64,000 bases of DNA from a virus: the IMG/VR virus record IMGVR_UViG_3300031251_000001, positions 1 to 64,000 of that record. One strand, written 5' to 3'. The position numbers were made by a program, and so were the translations under genes. Position 1 is the first letter of the stretch. Each line of letters opens with the position of its first letter. Below the pieces are notes generated by a model, which was not told where the DNA came from, ran no database searches, and saw only the letters and a list, made by a program, of their open reading frames with translations. This document shows, one piece after another, positions 10,436 through 23,545 of the stretch.

Positions 10436-11062
10436 TCACTCCTTGATCGCGGGTAAATCGTTGAACGGCACAGCGCTGCAACGAATCTTATCAATAGTGG
10501 CCAGGATCTGGGAGAGGAACTCGTTCTTGTGCACGTAGGTATTGGTCCGGAACCCTTCCGCCGTGTAGAGCTCCGTGTTGGGCTCGTTGCCGGCGTCATA
10601 GCTACCGTCCGCACCGCGATGGATCATGAACGGACCATAGAGGAACTTCCCGTGCTCTACCAGCTGCTTCCTGATGTACTCCTCGGAGGCACAGAAGTAT
10701 TGAGCATAGTAGAACCGCGACGGCACATCACCGATGTGGGTTTGACTGTTCAGCTTCTCCACCTGAAACGTGCACTCAGGTCCGATCTTGAGAAACTGCT
10801 GGTGACCGGCTTGCGAGGAGTCCATGGCCAGGATCACCATGATCGCCACCATGTCGCACTTAGGTGAGTTGAGGAAGGTATTGATCGTTTCCTGAATACC
10901 CTTGGCTCTCCAGACTTCTTCCTTCTGCAGTCGATCCCACTGTGCGACGGTGAAACTTTTGCCTGCGATTTTACGTTTACCGGGATAGGGTCTCGGTGAG
11001 GTATCCACGCACGCCAGCAGCTGGTTACGGGTGATCGACTTGAGGCCGCTTAATGGTGTCAC
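10436..11062 (-). CDS. hypothetical protein, GTG start
   Basis: 208 residues from GTG with GGAG 9 nt upstream; an upstream TTG at 11077 is the alternative. It has a basic segment (PGKRKIAGKSF) and a mixed alpha/beta middle (VAIMVILAMDSSQAGHQQFL). No motif gives a function. It overlaps the 3' end of the upstream gene by 38 nt. Confidence 0.6.
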   Translation of the reverse strand: MTPLSGLKSITRNQLLACVDTSPRPYPGKRKIAGKSFTVAQWDRLQKEEVWRAKGIQETINTFLNSPKCDMVAIMVILAMDSSQAGHQQFLKIGPECTFQVEKLNSQTHIGDVPSRFYYAQYFCASEEYIRKQLVEHGKFLYGPFMIHRGADGSYDAGNEPNTELYTAEGFRTNTYVHKNEFLSQILATIDKIRCSAVPFNDLPAIKE

Positions 11063-13205: not shown

Positions 13206-13811
13206 TTATACTTCCTCCTCATGTTGAGTGAACTGTGGTGTCCAGAACCGCTTGACACGTTCGATCAGTGTCACCAGCGGCTCGATAATGATCGATTCAC
13301 GAAGTGGGGAATCGGGACCAGGCACATACCGCAGTTGTAGCCCAGGAACATCTTCCTCCGTCGCGTAACCTGGATGGAGTGCGAGACCTCCCCGCACATT
13401 GATTCGTTTTACGATTAAGCAGGGCGAGCGGGCGTCATTCTCGTACATCCGTCTCGTCATGTCCATCGCTTTGACGTAAGCCTTCCCTAAAGGCGTGGTC
13501 TCGAATGCACTGAACATCCGAGGCAGGGTAGAGTTTTTATCGTCGTGCAGCTTGATGCCGCCGAGCGTGCTGCAGATCAGCAGAAACGGGAAACCATCAA
13601 CGCAGGCGTTAAAGGAATCCACCGACAGACCTGGCGTACCGTTGGTAGCCAGGTGATGAGCTCGCAGCTGCTTGATGTGGCGATCCACTCGAAACAGCTT
13701 CATCACGAGCGAGACAGTCTCCACCTCCAGGTTGATCTGGCTTTGACTGTCGCGCGACGTTCGATGGTTGACCTGCGAGATGAAGGCATCCCGCACGGGA
13801 TCATTCTTCAT
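13206..13811 (-). CDS. hypothetical protein
   Basis: 201 residues, mixed alpha/beta, no motif recognised. Its ATG overlaps the stop region of the RecA-like gene by 11 nt, so it is translationally linked to the recombinase and may be a recombination accessory factor. That role is inferred from position alone. Confidence 0.6.
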   Translation of the reverse strand: MKNDPVRDAFISQVNHRTSRDSQSQINLEVETVSLVMKLFRVDRHIKQLRAHHLATNGTPGLSVDSFNACVDGFPFLLICSTLGGIKLHDDKNSTLPRMFSAFETTPLGKAYVKAMDMTRRMYENDARSPCLIVKRINVRGGLALHPGYATEEDVPGLQLRYVPGPDSPLRESIIIEPLVTLIERVKRFWTPQFTQHEEEV

Positions 13812-15522
13812 CGTCTTCGGCCTCCTCCTTGGTCACCGGCTTACGTTCAGCCTCTTCCTTCTCATCCTTCTCCTTGGACTTCTTCTTGATCTTCTTAGCT
13901 TCCTCCTCCATGGCTTTCTTGGAGTGCTCGGCCACCAAGCGAGAAAGGATGTTGGGGTGCTTCTTCTCGTACTCCCGACGAATGGCGTCACGCTGTTCCA
14001 GGATGTCACCATCGAGGTAGGCGATCTCCTGAATACGCAGTGCCTTACGGATCATGGTCAGCACTTCAGGGTTGCGGTGGATCATGTCACCGAGCACACG
14101 GAACGGTACCGCGTCCTCTTTGGTCATCCCCAGCGTCTTAGAGTAAGCCGCGTTGGCGACATCACCCGTTTTCGTGATGGTCATGTGCCAGCCGGCATCG
14201 GTCAGGTTCTTCTTGTAGATGCCCTCCTGCACCGCCTTGGAAGCGAGCAGGGTCACCGTGGCGGCATTCCAGTCATAAGCCGTACGGAACTGCCAGCCCT
14301 GGGGGCTATCGTCAGGCTCGGTCCAGCGCAGGGAGTCTACCTGGATGACACGATGATCAGTACCGAACGAGTTCTTGTCGTTCTTGATCTTGATCGTGCT
14401 ACCCTCGTAGTTCGCAGCTCTGAACTTCTTCACCCGACGCAAGTCGAGATCGAATGATTCGACGAACTGCACCTGCTGACCGCCGGCCTTGCTCCTGGTC
14501 TCGAAGCCCTGCGAATCCTTGCCGAGCTTGGTCTGCGAGACCAGCACAACGAGGACGGGCCACTGTTCCAGGATGTTAGGCAGCGTCTTGAAGAAGTTGG
14601 TGTTCATCAAGGCTTCGTGGGGGTGGGCGCGATCGCCGTGGCCCCGCTCCCAGGTCTTCTCCTGATTCTCCTGAGACATCTTGCCGGAGATGGTATCCAC
14701 GGCCAGACCGAGCACCCGCGACCTGCCGATCTTCTCGATTTTCGTGACCTCACGAAAATTACCATTCTTCAGCTTGTGCTTGGTGGTGATCGGCACGCCG
14801 TTGAGCATGGTATGGATGGCAGCGTCGGTCTGCTTCTTGCAGATCTGTTGCCAGTGATCGACCGACCTGGCCCGATGGATCATGACCCGCTTGATGGAGT
14901 CACCCAGGAGACCCGGCGGCAGATTAGGCGACAACTTCGACTCGTGATCGATGTAGTTACCAAATCCACCATAGAGATCGATCCAGCGCATCAACTCCAA
15001 GGCCAAAGTCGATTTGGTGGAGCCCCAGACGCCAGCCAGGGTAATGACGGTGCCGATCGGCATGCCGGTGGCGCCGGCGATCCACTCCATCGGCAGACAG
15101 CCAGGGATGGGATCGCTGTCCCAGGCCGAGGATGCCCACATGGGGACGCCGATCCACAGGCCCCGTAGGGAGCCGGTGCCGATGAACTGCTGGGTATCGC
15201 CACTCTTCTTGAAGGAATGGGCGAGCTGTGCCTGGATGACGGCACTCTGTACGGTACGAGCGGCACGAGCCGAGGCGGGCAGGATCAGACCGCCGCCTCT
15301 TCTCTGCACGATGGGAGACCGACTAACCAACTCCTCCAGAGCGGGTGCGTCGGTAACGATGGGACTCTTATTGGCTGCTTTCTTTTTCGTGGTGGTGGGT
15401 TTAGCCTGGGCAGGCCTGGAGGGAGGGTTCTTCGTCGGGGGTGTGTAGTCAACGGCCACATCTGTTTCACGTGAAACACGTCCTGACTCGACCTGGATAG
15501 GTCCATTGCCGAAACGACCCAT
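13801..15522 (-). CDS. RecA/UvsX-like recombinase
   Basis: 573 residues. The core begins near residue 150: Walker A GVWGSTKST (about 164-172), IDHESKLSP as the equivalent of the RecA/UvsX Glu region (about 191-199), Walker B RVLGLAVDTISG, then LVVLVSQTKLGKD followed by the Gly-rich DNA-binding loop region SKAGGQQVQF. It polymerises on ssDNA and performs strand exchange. The N-terminal 120 residues are mostly low complexity; the C-terminus is a long charged, acidic tail ending EEAEDDEE, as in RecA regulation. AAGGAG lies 5 nt before the ATG. The palindrome at 15539 lies 16 nt upstream, and a perfect parS site covers codons 15-20. The first residues MGRFG match those of the neighbouring SSB-like protein. 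Confidence 0.8.
   Translation of the reverse strand: MGRFGNGPIQVESGRVSRETDVAVDYTPPTKNPPSRPAQAKPTTTKKKAANKSPIVTDAPALEELVSRSPIVQRRGGGLILPASARAARTVQSAVIQAQLAHSFKKSGDTQQFIGTGSLRGLWIGVPMWASSAWDSDPIPGCLPMEWIAGATGMPIGTVITLAGVWGSTKSTLALELMRWIDLYGGFGNYIDHESKLSPNLPPGLLGDSIKRVMIHRARSVDHWQQICKKQTDAAIHTMLNGVPITTKHKLKNGNFREVTKIEKIGRSRVLGLAVDTISGKMSQENQEKTWERGHGDRAHPHEALMNTNFFKTLPNILEQWPVLVVLVSQTKLGKDSQGFETRSKAGGQQVQFVESFDLDLRRVKKFRAANYEGSTIKIKNDKNSFGTDHRVIQVDSLRWTEPDDSPQGWQFRTAYDWNAATVTLLASKAVQEGIYKKNLTDAGWHMTITKTGDVANAAYSKTLGMTKEDAVPFRVLGDMIHRNPEVLTMIRKALRIQEIAYLDGDILEQRDAIRREYEKKHPNILSRLVAEHSKKAMEEEAKKIKKKSKEKDEKEEAERKPVTKEEAEDDEE
15463..15478. promoter_or_regulatory. parS: canonical bacterial parS site (ParB-binding)
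   Basis: TGTTTCACGTGAAACA, identical at all 16 positions to the chromosomal parS consensus bound by ParB/Spo0J in most bacterial phyla. It lies inside the recombinase coding region (codons for RVSRET), 44 nt after the start codon and 60 nt from the CAAAATACGTATTTTG palindrome on the other side of the start codon. No parA or parB gene is visible in this window, so binding by host ParB is the natural inference. Confidence 0.8.
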
Positions 15523-15538
15523 TGCGACTCCTTCGGTT

Positions 15539-15554
15539 CAAAATACGTATTTTG
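15539..15554. promoter_or_regulatory. 16-bp palindrome, copy 2
   Basis: Perfect CAAAATACGTATTTTG, 16 nt before the recombinase start and directly after the terminator at 15562-15581. It therefore lies at the beginning of a new transcription unit, or in its leader. Confidence 0.85.
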
Positions 15555-15561
15555 GAAACAA

Positions 15562-15581
15562 CCCCGGCCCGAAGGCCGGGG
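15562..15581 (-). terminator. intrinsic terminator with UUCG loop
   Basis: On the minus strand CCCCGGCC-TTCG-GGCCGGGG followed by TTGTTT: an 8-bp GC stem capped by the very stable UUCG tetraloop. It ends the SSB-like gene, whose stop codon lies about 14 nt upstream. Confidence 0.85.
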
Positions 15582-15595
15582 CGTCCGTGGGTTGA

Positions 15596-17557
15596 TTATC
15601 GCCGAGTGGCAGTGCCGCCGCTAGGTGGTTTCTTGACCGGAGCGGCAGCAGGTTTCACAGGGGCCTTGCCGGGAGCAGGCTTACCAGCTACTGGTTTGCC
15701 GGGAGCCGGTTTGACCGGGGCCTTGGCGGGTGCCGCAGCTGGTTTCACCGGAGCTTTGGCAGGAGCAGCTGCTGGCTTGACGGGAGCCTTACCGGGAGCC
15801 GGTTTGACCGGAGCCTTACCCGCGACGGGCTTGGCTGCTGGTCGTGCCGGTGGCGTGGGAGCCTTCCCTGCGGGAGTCTTACGGGCAGCAGCACGGGTAT
15901 CGGCCCCTGCTGCAGCACGCTTGGCCCGTTCGATGTCAGCAGTCGAGACAGCCGGCGTGGAGAAATCATCATCCTCTTCTTCGGGGGTGGTTTCTTCCTC
16001 CTCTTCGGCGTCAGCGTCCGCTTCGACCTCGGCATCAGGATCGTAGTCTTCAGTGACTTCCTCTTCGGTTGTCTCATCCTCTACGGGTGCCTCTTCCTCG
16101 GCTTCAGGATCGGCTTCCTGTTCTTCCTCGGCTTCAGGATCAGCTTCGGGATCTTCTTCGACCTCCCCTGCTTCCTGATCCTCCTCGGGTTGATCCTCGG
16201 TGATTTCCTCTTCCTCGACCTCACCCTGATCAGCAGCGTCGACTTCCTCGAAGGTCTCGTCGTCCTCTTCGGGTTCTTCGTACTTGGCTGCTGCCGGCGT
16301 CTTCGTGCCAGCCTTGGGCTTGGCAGCGGCCGTCTTGGGCTTAACGGGTGCAGGAGTCTCATCCTCGCCGCTGGTCTCATCGTCCCCAGGGACAACCGCG
16401 GAAACGCGAGACTGGAGAATGCCCTGAACCTCGTCAGTCAACAGGTGATCGTGCTCTTCCCAGCACTTGATCACCAAGCCGCCCACGTCCTTGAAGGCAC
16501 GAGCGATGACGGCTGCCTGCTCTTCGTCGTCCATAATGCGCAGCAGGCCAGGGTGGCTCTTGCCGTCAGCCTTATAGCCGTACCAGAAGTAGGCGGTCTG
16601 GAAGATCCGCTGGACGTGCTCAGCACTGAGGGTCGCTGAGAAAGGAGCCGTCTTGGCGGTGGCGGCGTATTCGCGGTACAGGTTGGTGTGCCAGCTGTAC
16701 TCGCCCAGTCCGTTGGTCGGAGCCCCACCATCCCAGGTGCATTCAGCGCCGGGAGTGACCTTGGGACCTGCCTTGAAGAACTCCAGGATGCGACCATTGA
16801 CCAGATTGCCTTCCTTACCGAGGAAGCCGATCGGATCAGTCTGGTACATCTTGTTGATATTCGTCTCGTTCTCTGAACCTTCCTTGCGGATGTCCAGATA
16901 GGCGAGCAGGCTCAGCGCTGTCGTTTTACCGATGCGGCAGATCGGCAGCGCATCTTCCTCACCCAAGCCATAAGGAACAGGATCCTTACGCTTGCCCTTG
17001 GCGGAGGGCAGCAAGTAGTTGTTCTTGCCGTGAGCCAGCACCGCACCCTGCATGAAGGCCATGTAGTCAGGGCCGGAGAGAGGCTTGGAGGCGTTGCCCT
17101 CGCGAGAGAACAACTTGTTCCATGACCCCTTCCAGTCTCGACCATCAGCCCACTTGCCGCTCTTGTTGGCTCGGAAGGCAGCCCAGTAGAGCAAGGTGTA
17201 AGGATTGGTGCGTTTACGCTCTTCCTCCTGCTGCGGTGAGTAGAGGATGAAGCTCACGCGGTCCTTGCCGGCGCCGACAAAACTCGCGGTGGCTACCACA
17301 GCGATCCAGTCCGTCTGCTCACGTTCTCCGGTACCGGCACGAGCACGCAAGAACTTGCTATCCGAGTGCACCGGATCCAGCGCAGGGTAGGGACGCATGA
17401 CCAGCTCATGATCCCTGGAAGGATAGTAGAGCTTAGTCCGCACCATCTGGTTGAGCAGCAGTGCGTCGGAACCGCCTCCCTCGTAATCGGCCGCAGCCCC
17501 GGCGGTACGACCGACATTCCCTGTCACAGCTTCCACATTCTTTCCAAAACGACCCAT
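15596..17557 (-). CDS. SSB-like (gp32-type) protein with long acidic and KAPVKP tails
   Basis: 653 residues. The first 340 form a folded domain. Context between DNA polymerase and recombinase, large Tyr/Trp/Lys content and beta-rich segments (TDWIAVVATASFVGAGKDRV, SFILYSPQQEEE) fit a phage single-stranded DNA-binding protein, though no diagnostic motif is visible. Residues about 380-540 are highly acidic (EEDQEAGEVEEDPEADPEAE), as in SSB C-terminal tails that recruit partners. The last 100 residues are repeats of APAKAPVKPA/APGK. The start MGRFGKN is chosen for AGGAG 5 nt upstream; the same MGRFG start and a following G-x-V-x-R...DY pattern occur in the recombinase. It ends at a strong terminator. 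Confidence 0.6.
   Translation of the reverse strand: MGRFGKNVEAVTGNVGRTAGAAADYEGGGSDALLLNQMVRTKLYYPSRDHELVMRPYPALDPVHSDSKFLRARAGTGEREQTDWIAVVATASFVGAGKDRVSFILYSPQQEEERKRTNPYTLLYWAAFRANKSGKWADGRDWKGSWNKLFSREGNASKPLSGPDYMAFMQGAVLAHGKNNYLLPSAKGKRKDPVPYGLGEEDALPICRIGKTTALSLLAYLDIRKEGSENETNINKMYQTDPIGFLGKEGNLVNGRILEFFKAGPKVTPGAECTWDGGAPTNGLGEYSWHTNLYREYAATAKTAPFSATLSAEHVQRIFQTAYFWYGYKADGKSHPGLLRIMDDEEQAAVIARAFKDVGGLVIKCWEEHDHLLTDEVQGILQSRVSAVVPGDDETSGEDETPAPVKPKTAAAKPKAGTKTPAAAKYEEPEEDDETFEEVDAADQGEVEEEEITEDQPEEDQEAGEVEEDPEADPEAEEEQEADPEAEEEAPVEDETTEEEVTEDYDPDAEVEADADAEEEEETTPEEEDDDFSTPAVSTADIERAKRAAAGADTRAAARKTPAGKAPTPPARPAAKPVAGKAPVKPAPGKAPVKPAAAPAKAPVKPAAAPAKAPVKPAPGKPVAGKPAPGKAPVKPAAAPVKKPPSGGTATRR
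15620..15830 (-). repeat. tandem imperfect repeats encoding KAPVKPA units
   Basis: GC-rich units of roughly 21-42 bp encode AKAPVKPA, PGKAPVKPA and related peptides at the C-terminus of the SSB-like protein. These are coding repeats, not a CRISPR array. Confidence 0.75.
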
Positions 17558-17571
17558 AACGTCTCCTTCTG

Positions 17572-20500
17572 CTAGGCAGCGGCATACCACAGTGGTATAC
17601 GGTGCTGTTCGCAATCCTTTTCAGTAAACGGTTCTGACCAGCGTGTCGACACTTCGTGTGACATGGATAGATAATAGGGTCCCGTTCCAAGCGACTCACC
17701 GTGAAGGTCAGTCGGGTAGATGGGCACTTGCTTGGCCATGGCCCAGCGGACCAGGCCTGTCTCCGGATGAGCCAGGTAATCGACCAGGTCGTACGGTGCT
17801 TCGATCAAGAGAGCATCGTGGATGGCCAGCAGCATTTTGACTTCCTTCTCGATCCCGGCCTCACGCAGAGCGTAATAGAGGTTGGCCACGCCCCGGTTGA
17901 GGGCACCAGCCACCAGAGCCTGGATCGGGAAGTTCATCGCCTGGCGTTCGATGTCGCCTGCCTGCCGCTTGTCCATCGCTCGTGGGAAGCGACGGCCGCG
18001 ACCAAAGCAGGAGAACATGACGCCCTCTTCGACAGCGATGCGGCGGCACTCGCTGAAGAACGGATCGAGTTCCGGGTACAGCTCGTACACGGTATCGATC
18101 ACCTGCTGTGCTTCCTCCTGGGTGATGTTGACGCCCTGCTCTTTGACAGCGAAGGCGATAGCCTTGGCACCGCGACCATAGAACAAACCGAACACCACGC
18201 TCTTGGCGATATGACGCAGGTTCTCCGCGTCGACCGACTTGAGCCCCGCCTTGCTGTAATCGCACTCCAGTTTGAAAGCGATGACCGCGATCATGGAGTG
18301 GATGTCCAAGTAGTCAGGATGCTTGGGGATACCCGGTGTGTCGCCATCGGGCAGGGTGTTACGACGCGCATGGTCGATGAGCACCTTACACCCCGACATG
18401 ATGCCGGCACCGAACAGCTCCGCACCCTTATAGTCGTGCTCGATGAAGCACATGCCGGGACGGGCCACGAACATCGATCGCAGCTTCTTGTTGTAGATCC
18501 AATTGCCCAGAGCATCCTGGCCGAAGATCTTCTTGAAGTCCTTGTCGCGATTCTTTGACTGATTCTGCAAGTTGGGTCGGAAGGACTTCCAACGGCTGGT
18601 TTCAGCAAAAGGAATGAAGTGGGACTTCACGACATCATCGGCGTCGATGCAGGCAGGCAGACCCTTGTCGTAGACGTGGCCACCCGTTTCGAGATCAATC
18701 TTGTAAGTGCCATCCTTGTTGAGCTCAGGGGGCCTCAGCGTCTGCTTGAGGGCCTGATCAAGAAATCGATGGTTGCGGATGAGATTGATCTTGGGGGCAA
18801 CGTCAGGGTTCTCTTCTGCCAGGATCGCCAACACCTGCTTGTTGGTCGAGGGACTGCGGAACAACGTCTCCCCTCGCTCGACGACATCCTCCCAGCGCAT
18901 CGGTGGCTTGGAAGTATCGATGAGCGGCTCCAGCTCCAGGGAGATAGCTCCCTCGGGCCGCAGCGACAAGGACTCACCCGTCTCCGGGTCGAACTTGCCG
19001 TTGTAACGTGTCCCAAAGAGGATCTCTTTGATCTGGTCGGTTGACCGCACATTGAGACCTTCTCGTTTCACTTTCTTCTTGGTGACCTTGAGTCCCTTCT
19101 TGAGCATCTTGCGTTTAGTCACCAGGTACCAGCGGTCGGGCCAGTTGAATGCCGCTTTGGCCTCCGCCTCCTTCTTGTCTCGTCCTCCCATGAACAAGGT
19201 AGTTAACTCTGCCAGTCTTTGTCGGTCGACTTTGATGCCGGTGGACTGCATCTCCAGGATCGGGGGCAGGGTCGACATGCCCTCCCAGAATGGCTCCCAG
19301 ACGCAATAGCCGTCATAGTCACAGCTGAGTCTCTTCTCCAGCTCCTCAGCGGCACGCAGGGTGACGTCGGCGTCATAACAGCCGTAGCTGTCACGCACGT
19401 GGATGCCGTCCTCCTCCAGCTCACCGATGAGGATCTCGTCAGGACACTCACCGTAACCATCCAGAGCGGCTGCGGTGATCTTCATCTTCGTGCAGTAGTC
19501 ATCCTTCCACTCTTCGAGCTTGCCCTCCCAGCGTGGTGCGGTGGTGTACCGCATCCCCAGGGACTCCAAGCCCAGGAAGGCTGTCTCTTCGATGGCGTGG
19601 GCGGCGACAGCGATATCGAATCCACCCTTGCCGGCCCGACACTGCTGCCACGGCTCACGGCCTTTCTCGTCGACCTTGTAGGGCACGGCGAACTCAGGAC
19701 GCAAGTCGAGACCGAAGTGGACGAACCACTCCAAATCATTCACGAAGAACGCACCGACCGCCCGCAAGCCACGCATGAAGTCTTTGAGTAGGCGGAACAA
19801 CCGTTTGACGGCCGGCCTACCGTACTTGTCGACGAAGGCGACGCCGCCACCCTGGTGGGTGAGCTTGAAACAGACAGCGGTCTTAAAGGCCCAGGACATC
19901 TGCACGGTCCGCAGGTAGGCACCTTTGTCGGTGGGGTGTTGTCCCTGCCACTCAGCATCCCATGCCACCATCCGTTTCTTCCGCCGCTTCATGGTGGCTT
20001 TAGCTTCTTTGACGATCTCGATCGCGTGCTCCAGGGTGGTGCACATACGGTGATCGATATCGTCTTCACGCTGGGTGCCGTCGCCGCTGGTGAGGAGGTA
20101 ACGGAACCGGCCCATGCCGCGCTCGAGTTGTCGCTTGCAGGCCACATCGGAGATAGCCTGCACGGGATGCAGAACCGTCATCACCGAAGCGGTGCGATCC
20201 TCGGCCTCATCGGGACAGCGATAGCTGATCTTCTCGATGCGACCCTCCATGTAGCCGACGCCGAACTTGCTGTCATTGAGTACCAGCTTGCTGGCGTCCG
20301 CCCCCAGGCACAGGATGTACTTGGGTTTGACAAGGAGGATCTCCATCCACAGGAGCGGCAGACAATCGGCTATCCACTTGGCCTTGGCCTTCTTGCTGCC
20401 GTCGGGTGGCACGAACTTGAGGATGTTGGTGACGTACCACTTGTTGGCCCCTTTGATGCGCAGGTCCCGAATGGTGTTGAGGAAGACCTCCCCCGTCTTA

Positions 20501-20883
20501 CCCATGAGGTTACGACGATAGGCTTGTTCCTCTTCCGCCGGCATCTTGCCGATGACCATGACCTCGGCTTCGTGAGGACCATCCACCGGCGGTACGACGT
20601 AGTCGCTGTCCAGCATCGACTTAGCCAGGTGCTCACTGTGCTGACCCCAGATGTGCCCAGGAATGAAAGAGGCCGGCAGATAGACGCCAGGCTTGGCTTC
20701 CACCATGAGCTCGGTACCGGGTACACGCAAGGCCTGGTCGTAGAGCCTGCTCATCTCCTCGGTGTAGAGCACCGGTTCTTTCTTTTTGGTTTTGGCGGTC
20801 TCCACTCCCATTGCCAGGTTGGCAGCGCGAATGAAGTCAGGCCCCGAGACGGGGATGCCAGGTGAGTTCCAGGGATAGATCAT
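17572..20883 (-). CDS. family A DNA polymerase with N-terminal UDG-like domain
   Basis: 1103 residues in three parts. Residues about 100-260 resemble the uracil-DNA glycosylase fold (VMVIGKMPAEEEQ at 109-120; LHPVQ at 238-242), as in SPO1-type phage polymerases; the usual GEAPG motif is altered to GKMPA. Residues about 300-520 are a 3'-5' exonuclease with AWDAEW (D309, E311), VNDLEWF (382-387) and CYDAD (502-506). Residues about 540-1103 are the polymerase: motif A HDYKGAEL (816-823), motif B RHIAKSVVFGLFYG (890-903), motif C AIHDALLIE (1020-1028). All catalytic acids and the O-helix R, K and Y are present. The ATG overlaps the primase stop (ATGA) and follows the palindrome at 20898 by 14 nt. 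Confidence 0.9.
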   Translation of the reverse strand: MIYPWNSPGIPVSGPDFIRAANLAMGVETAKTKKKEPVLYTEEMSRLYDQALRVPGTELMVEAKPGVYLPASFIPGHIWGQHSEHLAKSMLDSDYVVPPVDGPHEAEVMVIGKMPAEEEQAYRRNLMGKTGEVFLNTIRDLRIKGANKWYVTNILKFVPPDGSKKAKAKWIADCLPLLWMEILLVKPKYILCLGADASKLVLNDSKFGVGYMEGRIEKISYRCPDEAEDRTASVMTVLHPVQAISDVACKRQLERGMGRFRYLLTSGDGTQREDDIDHRMCTTLEHAIEIVKEAKATMKRRKKRMVAWDAEWQGQHPTDKGAYLRTVQMSWAFKTAVCFKLTHQGGGVAFVDKYGRPAVKRLFRLLKDFMRGLRAVGAFFVNDLEWFVHFGLDLRPEFAVPYKVDEKGREPWQQCRAGKGGFDIAVAAHAIEETAFLGLESLGMRYTTAPRWEGKLEEWKDDYCTKMKITAAALDGYGECPDEILIGELEEDGIHVRDSYGCYDADVTLRAAEELEKRLSCDYDGYCVWEPFWEGMSTLPPILEMQSTGIKVDRQRLAELTTLFMGGRDKKEAEAKAAFNWPDRWYLVTKRKMLKKGLKVTKKKVKREGLNVRSTDQIKEILFGTRYNGKFDPETGESLSLRPEGAISLELEPLIDTSKPPMRWEDVVERGETLFRSPSTNKQVLAILAEENPDVAPKINLIRNHRFLDQALKQTLRPPELNKDGTYKIDLETGGHVYDKGLPACIDADDVVKSHFIPFAETSRWKSFRPNLQNQSKNRDKDFKKIFGQDALGNWIYNKKLRSMFVARPGMCFIEHDYKGAELFGAGIMSGCKVLIDHARRNTLPDGDTPGIPKHPDYLDIHSMIAVIAFKLECDYSKAGLKSVDAENLRHIAKSVVFGLFYGRGAKAIAFAVKEQGVNITQEEAQQVIDTVYELYPELDPFFSECRRIAVEEGVMFSCFGRGRRFPRAMDKRQAGDIERQAMNFPIQALVAGALNRGVANLYYALREAGIEKEVKMLLAIHDALLIEAPYDLVDYLAHPETGLVRWAMAKQVPIYPTDLHGESLGTGPYYLSMSHEVSTRWSEPFTEKDCEQHRIPLWYAAA

Positions 20884-21968
20884 GCTTCCATGCCTTCCAA
20901 AATACGTATTTTGGGTTTGAGCCCGAACTTCACCACCACGTCCTGTTTAGCGGCCTCTTGGATGATGTAAGGCCGCATGACCGACTTATCCAACTCGTCG
21001 GGATCGACTCCTTCAGGCAGACGAACAAAGGCTACCTGACCTGGTAGCTTCGTCCGTAGCTGCAGCGACAGCTTCTTGTGCTTGTCGGTGTCGAACTCAT
21101 CCGGATCCAGCAGATAGACCACACTGCCGTGCCGGAAGGCAACAGCAATCTGGCCGATCTGTGAATCGTTAAACTGGTGGCCCATCAGCGGGAAGGCCAT
21201 CGGACCGATGGCGAAGCGATCGTACCAACCCTCCACCATGATGCCCGTGTGGTACCTCCTGGCGATATGCAGGTTGAGTACCCCGGTCGAGTACGTCATG
21301 TCGGGACAGGTGAAATACTTGATCACGCCTTCACGCTTGAAGTCGATGTCGCCGACGAATCGTCCTTGCCAGCCGATGAGCCCAGTGGCATCACGGATGG
21401 GTACGATAATCCGGTGGAGAGCCGTGCGGAAGCGTGGGTTGGTGACAGCCACGCAGTAACTGACGCCGTGCCACTTGGAGAGCAGGTGCCCATCGACGTG
21501 TCGGCTGAGCAGGTAGGCATTGGCAGGGTGATGATAGGGTAGCTTGTGCAGCGGGGTACACACGCCGGGCATGGTAATGACCTTGGGCTCCGCTTTCCTG
21601 CCCTTGGCGACAGGCAAAGCAGCCAGCGACTTCGTCCCCATTTCGAGTCCCTGCGTGAACTCGTAAAGGTTCTGAGGATCGTCCAGGCAATCAGCGTTGA
21701 AGCAGTGGATGAGGAAGTTACCCTTCCGTCCATCACTCAGCATCTTGCCGAACATGTAGCTGACGTAGAGCCGTCGCTTGCGGTCAGGGCAGAAGGGGCA
21801 ATTGATGCGATAGAACTCGCCGCCTCGAACCTTGGCCAGCATGCGTTTGCCGGTGATAGGGTCGATGTAAGCAGGTCGATCGAACGCCTCACCCTCATGG
21901 TTGATCAGCACATCGTCGTACAGCTCCTTGAGCCGGTCGTAGAGTGCTGGATTCAGCGGATTGCTCAT
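20880..21968 (-). CDS. DnaG-type DNA primase
   Basis: 362 residues. N-terminal zinc-binding site from INCPFCPD (C57, C60) and HCFNADC (about 88-94). TOPRIM-type catalytic core: GIMVEGWYDRFAIG (Glu motif, about 245) and VVYLLDPDEFDTDKH (DxD-like motif, about 285). It makes RNA primers for the replisome together with the neighbouring helicase. It is shorter than bacterial DnaG and lacks an obvious C-terminal helicase-binding domain. The last codons (KIRILEGMEA) contain a perfect copy of the regulatory palindrome, which forces the rare Ile codon ATA. The start overlaps the helicase stop (ATGA). Confidence 0.85.
   Translation of the reverse strand: MSNPLNPALYDRLKELYDDVLINHEGEAFDRPAYIDPITGKRMLAKVRGGEFYRINCPFCPDRKRRLYVSYMFGKMLSDGRKGNFLIHCFNADCLDDPQNLYEFTQGLEMGTKSLAALPVAKGRKAEPKVITMPGVCTPLHKLPYHHPANAYLLSRHVDGHLLSKWHGVSYCVAVTNPRFRTALHRIIVPIRDATGLIGWQGRFVGDIDFKREGVIKYFTCPDMTYSTGVLNLHIARRYHTGIMVEGWYDRFAIGPMAFPLMGHQFNDSQIGQIAVAFRHGSVVYLLDPDEFDTDKHKKLSLQLRTKLPGQVAFVRLPEGVDPDELDKSVMRPYIIQEAAKQDVVVKFGLKPKIRILEGMEA
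20898..20913. promoter_or_regulatory. 16-bp palindrome, copy 3
   Basis: Perfect copy within CCAAAATACGTATTTTGG (18-bp symmetry). It lies inside the last codons of the primase gene and 14 nt before the DNA polymerase start. Confidence 0.85.
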
Positions 21969-23545
21969 ATACCGAGGTTGCTTCGTTGCTGAGGGTTCTG
22001 GGTTGGAATGTACTTGTCAGGGTTGTTGCTGCCTGCCTTACCGGCATCTTTGAGGGAGATGAAAGTACGGGTGCTCTCTTCAATGGTCATGTGGTCGGTG
22101 GCATCACTGAACTGGTAGAAGCTGCCGTCAAAGCGCACGATCAACCGAGGGCAGATCGGGCCGTGCCGGTTCTTGTCCGAGTACCAGGCACAGTAGCCAT
22201 CCTGGTTGACCTTGCCGCTGACCACGTTGATGTCGAGGTACATGCCGAACGACTTGCAGCCTTCCACGTCGGTACCGGCCATCGGGGCTCCCGGTGATCG
22301 CGAGTTGGCAGCACCGCTGAGCTGAGCCAGGAGTACCACGGGGACGTTGTACTTCTTGGCTACCTGAATACGCAGCTTACGCGGCAGATCACGCACTAAG
22401 TCGACACGATCGTCCTTGGTGTAGCGACCGTTGGAAGTCTCGATCACGTGATCCACCAGGGCACTGGTATGGTCGATCCATACCGAGTGGACGTAGGTGG
22501 TGTCGGTGTTGAGCAACCGGACGCAATTGGCGATCGTGGAAATCGACTGCACGGTGGCATGGTCGTTTTCCATGTTCGAGACGTCATAGAGCACGACGTT
22601 GTTGCTGATCGCTTTGGCTGCCGCCATGGCACGTCCCTTTTCGGAGATGTGCTTGGAGCCGGCGAACATCTTCTTCTCGTACTCCTGGGGCGGGTCGTTC
22701 TTCGTTCGCAGCCCCTCGAAGCCGACCTCCTGCAGGTACTTGGAGGGAATGCCGGCATAACAGCTGAGGAAGCGAAGGAGGAACTCCGACTTGGGGGTCT
22801 CGAAGGTGAAGATGGCAACGATCGGTTTGCGACCTTCAGCGTCCAGCTCCGCCGTCCTGGTGATCTGGCACGCGGCCCGTACCACTAGCGACGTCTTGCC
22901 ACCGCCGAAGGGGGCAGCAAAGCCAGCAACCCAACCACCGGCCATACCGCCGCCGAGGATGCGGTCGTAGACCTTGACCTCGGAAGAGCGACGGATAACC
23001 TTGGTGTTCTTCCACCACTCCCCGTCAAACATTTGTCCTGCTGCGGACAAAAGGGCCGGGGCCGAACGGGCTACCCGTTCGTTGATCTTGGCGAAGAAGT
23101 CAGGGATGTCTTCAGGTACCTGACCGATCTCACACTCCGCCTGGTAGGCCAGATAGATCGATTCCTCGACCATCCGCTTGCACAGGCTGATGCCCTTTTC
23201 GACGAGGTCGTCGGTGACTTTCATGCGATAGGCAACACGCACCAGTTCAACGGTCTCGTTGACCACATCCTCGGTGAAGACGCTAGGCATATCTTCCGCA
23301 GTCTCGCGCAGCGTCTGGATCAAAACATTGCGAGAGGGACGACTACCCAGAGCCAGAGCGTCACGGTAGAGACGCCACACCATGGCAAAGCCTGGGTTCC
23401 AACTAGCGATATCCTCGGGCTGGAGGGTATCAAGGAACTGCCTGGCGGCGGTCTCGGAAGCGAGCAACAGCTTGATGGCGTTGACCTTAGCGGTGCCGTT
23501 GAGGACCTTCCTTTTCTCCAGGTACTTTTCTTTGTCTGTGCCCAT
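21965..23545 (-). CDS. DnaB-like replicative helicase
   Basis: 526 residues. RecA-type helicase core from about residue 190: GGGMAGGWVAGFAAPFGGGK (Walker A near 211-219), VAIFTFETPKSEFLLRFLS (DnaB-type E-x2-K/P after strand 2), HSVWIDHTSALVDH (Walker B), then VPVVLLAQLSGA with the sensor Gln. The first 150 residues are helical, like the DnaB N-terminal domain. It forms a hexamer that unwinds DNA ahead of the polymerase. GGAGG lies about 10 nt before the ATG. The primase gene follows with an overlapping start. Confidence 0.85.
   Translation of the reverse strand: MGTDKEKYLEKRKVLNGTAKVNAIKLLLASETAARQFLDTLQPEDIASWNPGFAMVWRLYRDALALGSRPSRNVLIQTLRETAEDMPSVFTEDVVNETVELVRVAYRMKVTDDLVEKGISLCKRMVEESIYLAYQAECEIGQVPEDIPDFFAKINERVARSAPALLSAAGQMFDGEWWKNTKVIRRSSEVKVYDRILGGGMAGGWVAGFAAPFGGGKTSLVVRAACQITRTAELDAEGRKPIVAIFTFETPKSEFLLRFLSCYAGIPSKYLQEVGFEGLRTKNDPPQEYEKKMFAGSKHISEKGRAMAAAKAISNNVVLYDVSNMENDHATVQSISTIANCVRLLNTDTTYVHSVWIDHTSALVDHVIETSNGRYTKDDRVDLVRDLPRKLRIQVAKKYNVPVVLLAQLSGAANSRSPGAPMAGTDVEGCKSFGMYLDINVVSGKVNQDGYCAWYSDKNRHGPICPRLIVRFDGSFYQFSDATDHMTIEESTRTFISLKDAGKAGSNNPDKYIPTQNPQQRSNLGI

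Follow-up and report, generated by a model that had tools for sequence, protein, structure and literature searches.

The recombinase gene of a large phage, known from a record of 214,229 bases, contains a 16-bp palindrome that is an exact copy of the bacterial chromosomal parS site. Judged by its sequence and by the behavior of the same site in other viruses, the palindrome at 15463-15478 is very probably a selected ParB-loading site. At parS, CTP-bound ParB is loaded and closes into a sliding clamp that binds ParA and brings in SMC, and these are activities that a phage might borrow from its host. Below we describe the site and its surroundings, its occurrence in other bacterial viruses, the evidence that the DNA itself is under selection, and the purposes that it may serve.

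The parS palindrome and its neighborhood

The window (the whole stretch of 64,000 nucleotides analyzed) lies within the 214-kb record. The features around the palindrome, in window positions, are as follows.

15463..15478, no strand: parS TGTTTCACGTGAAACA, perfect 16-bp palindrome and putative host ParB loading site (consensus match; sole copy in the record)
13801..15522, minus strand: uvsX/recA-like recombinase gene, containing parS as codons 15-20 (RVSRET) in its translation; product matches UvsX-like recombinase (phrog_97, E 5.9e-11) and RecA (PF00154)
15528..15533, minus strand: Shine-Dalgarno AAGGAG of the recombinase gene (from sequence)
15539..15554, no strand: palindrome CAAAATACGTATTTTG, repeated through the phage, just upstream of the recombinase gene and a neighbor of parS (1 of 22 exact copies in the record)
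15562..15581, minus strand: GC-rich hairpin CCCCGGCC-TTCG-GGCCGGGG followed by TTGTTT, a possible terminator (weak call, from sequence) between the recombinase gene and the upstream gene
15596..17557, minus strand: upstream gene, whose translation has an acidic, P/A-rich tail and an N-terminal peptide like that of the recombinase
17572..20883, minus strand: DNA polymerase gene of the replication module (phrog_17, E 8e-77)
20880-21968, minus strand: primase (phrog_47/phrog_19 matches and PF03796 for the primase-helicase pair)
21965-23545, minus strand: DnaB-like helicase (same matches for the pair)

TGTTTCACGTGAAACA is identical to the published consensus parS (PMC7383237) and belongs by sequence to the chromosomal-type parS sites, a 16-bp palindrome in which few mismatches are allowed. 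In the recombinase gene it takes up the final base of codon 15 and all of codons 16-20, these six codons reading R V S R E T, and it lies 44 bases downstream of the uvsX start; that start, at 15522, is supported by the AAGGAG at 15533-15528. There is no second parS-like site at three or fewer mismatches in the 64-kb window, shuffles of which contain a mean of 0.16 such sites, and no further one at two or fewer mismatches in the whole record, where the next best match has four. With Markov models of orders 0-5 trained on the record, about 2e-5 exact copies are expected in it (1.5e-5 to 4e-5), and the joint probability of the parS codons, given the peptide RVSRET and the codon usage of the phage record, is 4e-5. 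On such sequence statistics, a chance origin of the palindrome is very unlikely.

The recombinase gene sits in a replication module together with genes for DNA polymerase, primase, two helicases (one DnaB-like, one UvsW-type) and an SbcC/D-like (Rad50/Mre11) pair. The product of the upstream gene (15596..17557) has no family above the cut-off in phrog and Pfam-type profile searches, and its N-terminal peptides resemble those of the recombinase (MGRFGKNVEAVTGNVGRTAGAAADY against MGRFGNGPIQVESGRVSRETDVAVDY, and GNVGRTAGAAADY against GRVSRETDVAVDY). The similar opening of this product suggests that parS may have been written into an older N-terminal motif. The genes starting at 15522 and 17557 have the common N-terminal pattern MGRFG...VE...G.V.R....A.DY, possibly a replisome-binding tag.

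Profile searches of the 214-kb record, which is possibly incomplete, found neither ParB_N (PF02195) nor ParA-type AAA_31 (PF13614), and each search recovered its control. A ParABS system of the phage's own was rejected, as no parA-parB operon adjoins parS and neither profile is present in the record. An earlier note on this DNA had claimed a match to the chromosomal parS consensus at all 16 positions, located at codons 15-20 of a RecA-like gene, and had seen no ParA/ParB; the exact 16-mer and the translation of 13801-15522 agree with it, and the profile searches, which include the search it had proposed for a parB homologue elsewhere in the genome, extend the absence to the entire record. Its description of the N-terminus as weakly constrained is accepted with reservation, since the similar opening of the upstream product means that the segment is not plainly unconstrained.

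No usable homologue came from tblastn/blastn searches of the phage's recombinase, polymerase, helicase and baseplate proteins against cultured phages, and pattern scans of viral and genome contigs yielded no relative with a readable recombinase. The only tRNA gene in the record is one tRNA-Met. Among the products of the phage are sigma-70-like factors (regions 2/4 and region 3; in window open reading frames and at L122:530-1240) and an RNA polymerase beta'-like domain. It also carries ThyX, a Tad2-like anti-Thoeris domain and a GpA-type terminase ATPase, yet has almost no detectable relatives.

A second perfect 16-bp palindrome, CAAAATACGTATTTTG, has 22 exact copies over the 214-kb record, spaced 2-23 kb apart. 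Its window positions are 485, 15539, 20898, 32138, 33745 (1 mismatch), 34418, 39032 and 49491, where 0.01 per window would be expected at two or fewer mismatches. In many cases a minus-strand gene has a copy 15-30 bp upstream of its SD/ATG, an arrangement reminiscent of a phage regulon or of repressor 'stoperators'. A search of 257 Gb of bacterial genomes found the palindrome in only 90 scattered stretches, with a single copy in each match listed, and because it is so rare and scattered there it looks private to the phage.

Orphan parS sites across bacterial viruses

The exact parS 16-mer is far commoner in viral DNA than its composition predicts. Among the 2.9 million viral contigs of IMG/VR, at least 120 contain it, and at least 119 contain an 18-mer in which CG precedes the parS 16-mer; only 7 contigs are common to the two sets of matches listed, so the total is estimated at about 2,000 contigs or more (120 x 119/7), a rough lower bound that rests on those 7 shared contigs. 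Two control palindromes of the same length and dinucleotides as parS were found in 11 contigs (8 of them one homologous family) and 5 contigs. Measured against these controls, and on the rough estimate of about 2,000, the enrichment is roughly 200-fold, and chance can explain at most about 0.5% of the exact viral matches (11 or 5 versus about 2,000). A composition artifact was rejected as the source of the enrichment, given that both identical-dinucleotide controls are rare. Nor is this one expanded family, because at the threshold used the 120 contigs among the matches listed form about 63 groups.

Of the 120 listed contigs, 44 form a single podovirus-like group, which has terminase, portal and GroES-like genes and is akin to phages of Pelagibacter, Roseobacter and Caulobacter. 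Many of its sites lie 20-150 bp upstream of terL, and the place of parS differs between related podoviruses, being in different genes; because the site moves in this way, its presence rather than its position seems to be selected. Elsewhere, parS lies inside terminase, portal, head-tail adaptor-like, primase/helicase and DarB-like genes, so that the genes hosting viral sites are diverse (terminase, portal, primase, tail, antirestriction). Other phages, too, repeatedly have sites encoded as VSRET in linkers or flexible N-termini. A single site was present in 194 of 232 sampled loci. Clusters of three to five exact sites within about 1 kb, without ParB, occur in the viral contigs L017, L044, L053 and L063, upstream of terL where the contig includes terL.

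These sites are mostly orphans. None of the 120 listed parS contigs has a ParB above the TIGR00180 cut-off (weak matches in 5), although short fragments are unable to prove the absence of ParB. PF02195, which is more sensitive than TIGR00180, scored above its cut-off in 3 of the 44 longer or cultured parS records. The orphan state agrees in complete records, because isolated phages with parS also have no ParB_N: none was found in the Bacillus phage Chedec 11, the Ruegeria phage DSS3P8, the Butyrivibrio phage Arian or the Lactobacillus phage Bacchae (three sites each), in the Arthrobacter phage Racecar (two sites), or in a 5.9-kb inovirus. The last of these, L385 (PQ006135.1), from rodent faeces, carries six exact parS sites, mostly intergenic, which is a very high density.

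Among other isolates, Pelagibacter phage HTVC027P has one site with one mismatch, and Alcaligenes phage QDWS535 has the Pseudomonas-type TGTTCCACGTGGAACA. In phi29, four copies of TGTTTCACGTGGAACA lie at 10445, 15903, 17243 and 18760, and no shuffle reaches four. The large phages phiCbK, SPO1 and AR9 were searched and have none, so parS is not generally needed. Contamination with host chromosome is an unlikely source of the viral parS contigs, given that many sites fall within or next to terminase, portal and other phage genes; this reading is further weakened by the isolated phages that carry parS.

Selection on the DNA palindrome

Whether it is the DNA or the encoded peptide that is conserved can be read from two unrelated phage gene families, which were retrieved by peptide patterns independent of the parS-site codons. 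In the first, a portal/connector-like family, 50 of 80 homologues have VSRET or VSREI. Across 32 representatives with a median nucleotide identity of 62%, the codons GTT, TCA, CGT and GAA are kept in 94, 94, 97 and 97%, versus a usage of 12, 6, 8 and 24% in these GC-rich genes. The last codon is laxer (ACA, ACC, ACG), which affects the outermost parS base alone. Within the 50-member VSRET clade, the question of whether the peptide is kept when the palindrome is lost is answered mostly in favor of the site. The exceptions are L367, which retains VSRET with all five codons changed and the palindrome gone, and L345 and L347, which have one extra synonymous change each and a partly broken palindrome.

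In the second, the GLLRGYTQGPLARVSRETQEPVGM (GLLRG) family, the VSRET codons are invariant in 16 of 18 haplotypes, while synonymous variation is seen in the flanking codons for G, P, L, A, P, V and G. The remaining two (L278-280 and L300) read GTT CCA CGT GGA ACA, turning VSRET into VPRGT by changing S to P and E to G together; these paired, symmetric, non-synonymous changes restore a perfect palindrome, TGTTCCACGTGGAACA, which is identical to P. aeruginosa parS2 and parS3 (PMC4368675). Protein constraint is hard-pressed as an explanation, because the paired amino-acid changes keep the DNA palindrome. Shared descent as the sole cause of the conservation was rejected in both families, where synonymous divergence surrounds the site. 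As judged from these codon patterns, selection on the DNA palindrome rather than the peptide is shown in two unrelated phage gene families. The proposal in the earlier note that this is a genuine parS able to recruit host ParB to a phage without ParAB gains strong support from the roughly 200-fold enrichment, the orphan state and the conservation of the DNA in both families.

What a phage may gain from host ParB

Taken as a whole, the sequence evidence is best explained by a working chromosomal-type parS for host ParB that gives the phage genome tethering and inheritance, which we regard as probable, though well short of certain. The intended reader of the palindrome would be host ParB rather than a phage protein. 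Once host ParB-CTP had loaded there, it would close into a clamp, and clamps would slide several kilobases over the replication/recombination module, the DNA polymerase gene (17572..20883) being within their likely range. A link through ParA and/or SMC would tether the phage genome to the nucleoid or the origin region, so that the infecting genome would stay with the host chromosome and reach daughter cells in a slow or deferred lytic cycle. Three points here are inferred: binding of this copy by ParB, a canonical ParB in the host, and the purpose that the binding would serve.

Tethering and segregation are favored because orphan parS can work in trans, as in par-stabilized plasmids, SGI1 and phi29; chromosomal parABS or par operons with one parS stabilize unstable plasmids (PMC7022226). 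As the main purpose of the site, they are put forward tentatively, at somewhat less than an even chance. The single site per 214 kb, versus three to six in several phages, counts against the explanation as a whole.

Phage P1 and extrachromosomal mycobacteriophages encode their own ParA and ParB with private parS sites. The likeness to the present case lies in active partition of an extrachromosomal phage genome; the difference is that here there is no ParA/ParB, and the site is the host's parS consensus. A closer parallel is phi29, which relies on host Spo0J (ParB) to bring its genome into the spore (Meijer et al. 2005, as cited in PMC9437464). Like phi29, the present phage has chromosomal-type parS and no ParA/ParB genes in its 214-kb, possibly incomplete record, and some of the sites of phi29 are likewise inside coding genes. 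The two differ in that the present phage, known from sequence alone, is of myovirus type, measures 214 kb and has its one exact site in a recombinase gene, whereas phi29, a podovirus of 19 kb with four TGTTTCACGTGGAACA sites, infects a spore former. SGI1, whose parS mimics hijack the ParABS of IncC plasmids (PMC10954446), is similarly a mobile element with parS-like sites that uses the ParAB of another replicon; it differs in having a plasmid-type parS and a plasmid helper, with no phage and no chromosomal ParB involved, and its case is proven by experiment. In lambda-parS imaging phages, parS on the phage DNA gathers ParB into visible foci after infection (PMC13190303), but there the parS is engineered and plasmid-type, and the ParB is supplied, as a label.

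Several other purposes were weighed. ParB clamps in the recombinase gene could cover the replication/recombination module and silence or time its transcription, which would thereby be coupled to CTP level or the cell cycle of the host. The position of parS, 44 bases into uvsX and within that module, accords with this, as do the many podovirus sites 20-150 bp upstream of terL, and phi29 and alphaproteobacterial phages are known to defer lysis through host regulators (PMC9437464). We nonetheless consider local regulation unlikely, as sites in very different genes, shifting among related phages, suggest that presence matters more than position.

Alternatively, a replicating phage would multiply parS and drain host ParB (and SMC), stalling host segregation or division. 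Orphan sites without ParAB would suit such interference, and the parS mimics of SGI1 both stabilize SGI1 and destabilize its helper plasmid (PMC10954446). It is nevertheless quite unlikely here: one site per 214 kb makes a weak sponge, most sampled contigs have a single site, and with catalytic clamp loading, decoys would be expected in arrays.

ParB-parS is the SMC loader in bacteria, and the site may instead load host SMC-ScpAB for compaction or extrusion of phage DNA during replication or packaging. The many podovirus sites near terL, and those adjoining terminase and portal genes, keep the packaging and SMC ideas alive. In this phage, parS lies in the replication module, not beside packaging genes, and a Rad50/Mre11 pair is encoded by the phage itself, so that we rate SMC loading as the main role improbable.

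That the 16-mer is accidental, or that the protein needs VSRET, is highly improbable: the similar upstream peptide GNVGRTAGAAADY means that the segment may have a protein role, and no homologue was found for showing selection at 15463-15478 itself, but the expected count, the codon probability given RVSRET and the small share of collection-wide matches that chance accounts for all speak against it. Scarcely credible is a non-ParB or phage-encoded regulator that happens to read parS, for although the phage has sigma-70-like factors and an RNA polymerase domain and is rich in another palindrome, there is only one parS copy, it matches the ParB optimum exactly, no ParB_N protein is present, and parS phages infect very different hosts with ParB the sole thing in common.

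The preferred reading, a parS for host ParB, belongs to a kind already known from phi29 but barely recognized, and its breadth appears undescribed. Within a literature search whose scope lay outside most subscription papers and all preprints, only phi29/Spo0J and SGI1 were found for orphan parS, and neither the breadth of phage parS nor DNA-level selection on it was found. Phi29 is the sole phage in that literature with exploitation of host ParB, explained there by sporulation. Yet the same tag, preserved as DNA, is present in inoviruses and in phages whose hosts do not sporulate (Pelagibacter, Ruegeria, Arthrobacter, lactobacilli). A parS motif in a contig is not proof of chromosomal or plasmid origin, and what a phage gains from the host ParB-ParA-SMC machinery is now a question that laboratory strains can address. 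We lean, if slightly, toward the view that bacterial viruses at large, filamentous phages of 6 kb and jumbo phages of >200 kb alike, carry orphan host centromeres as a general strategy, and that these evolved many times and are often embedded in coding sequence at an amino-acid cost; host ParB would then be a routine infection factor, its clamps in this phage being delivered straight onto the replication/recombination module.
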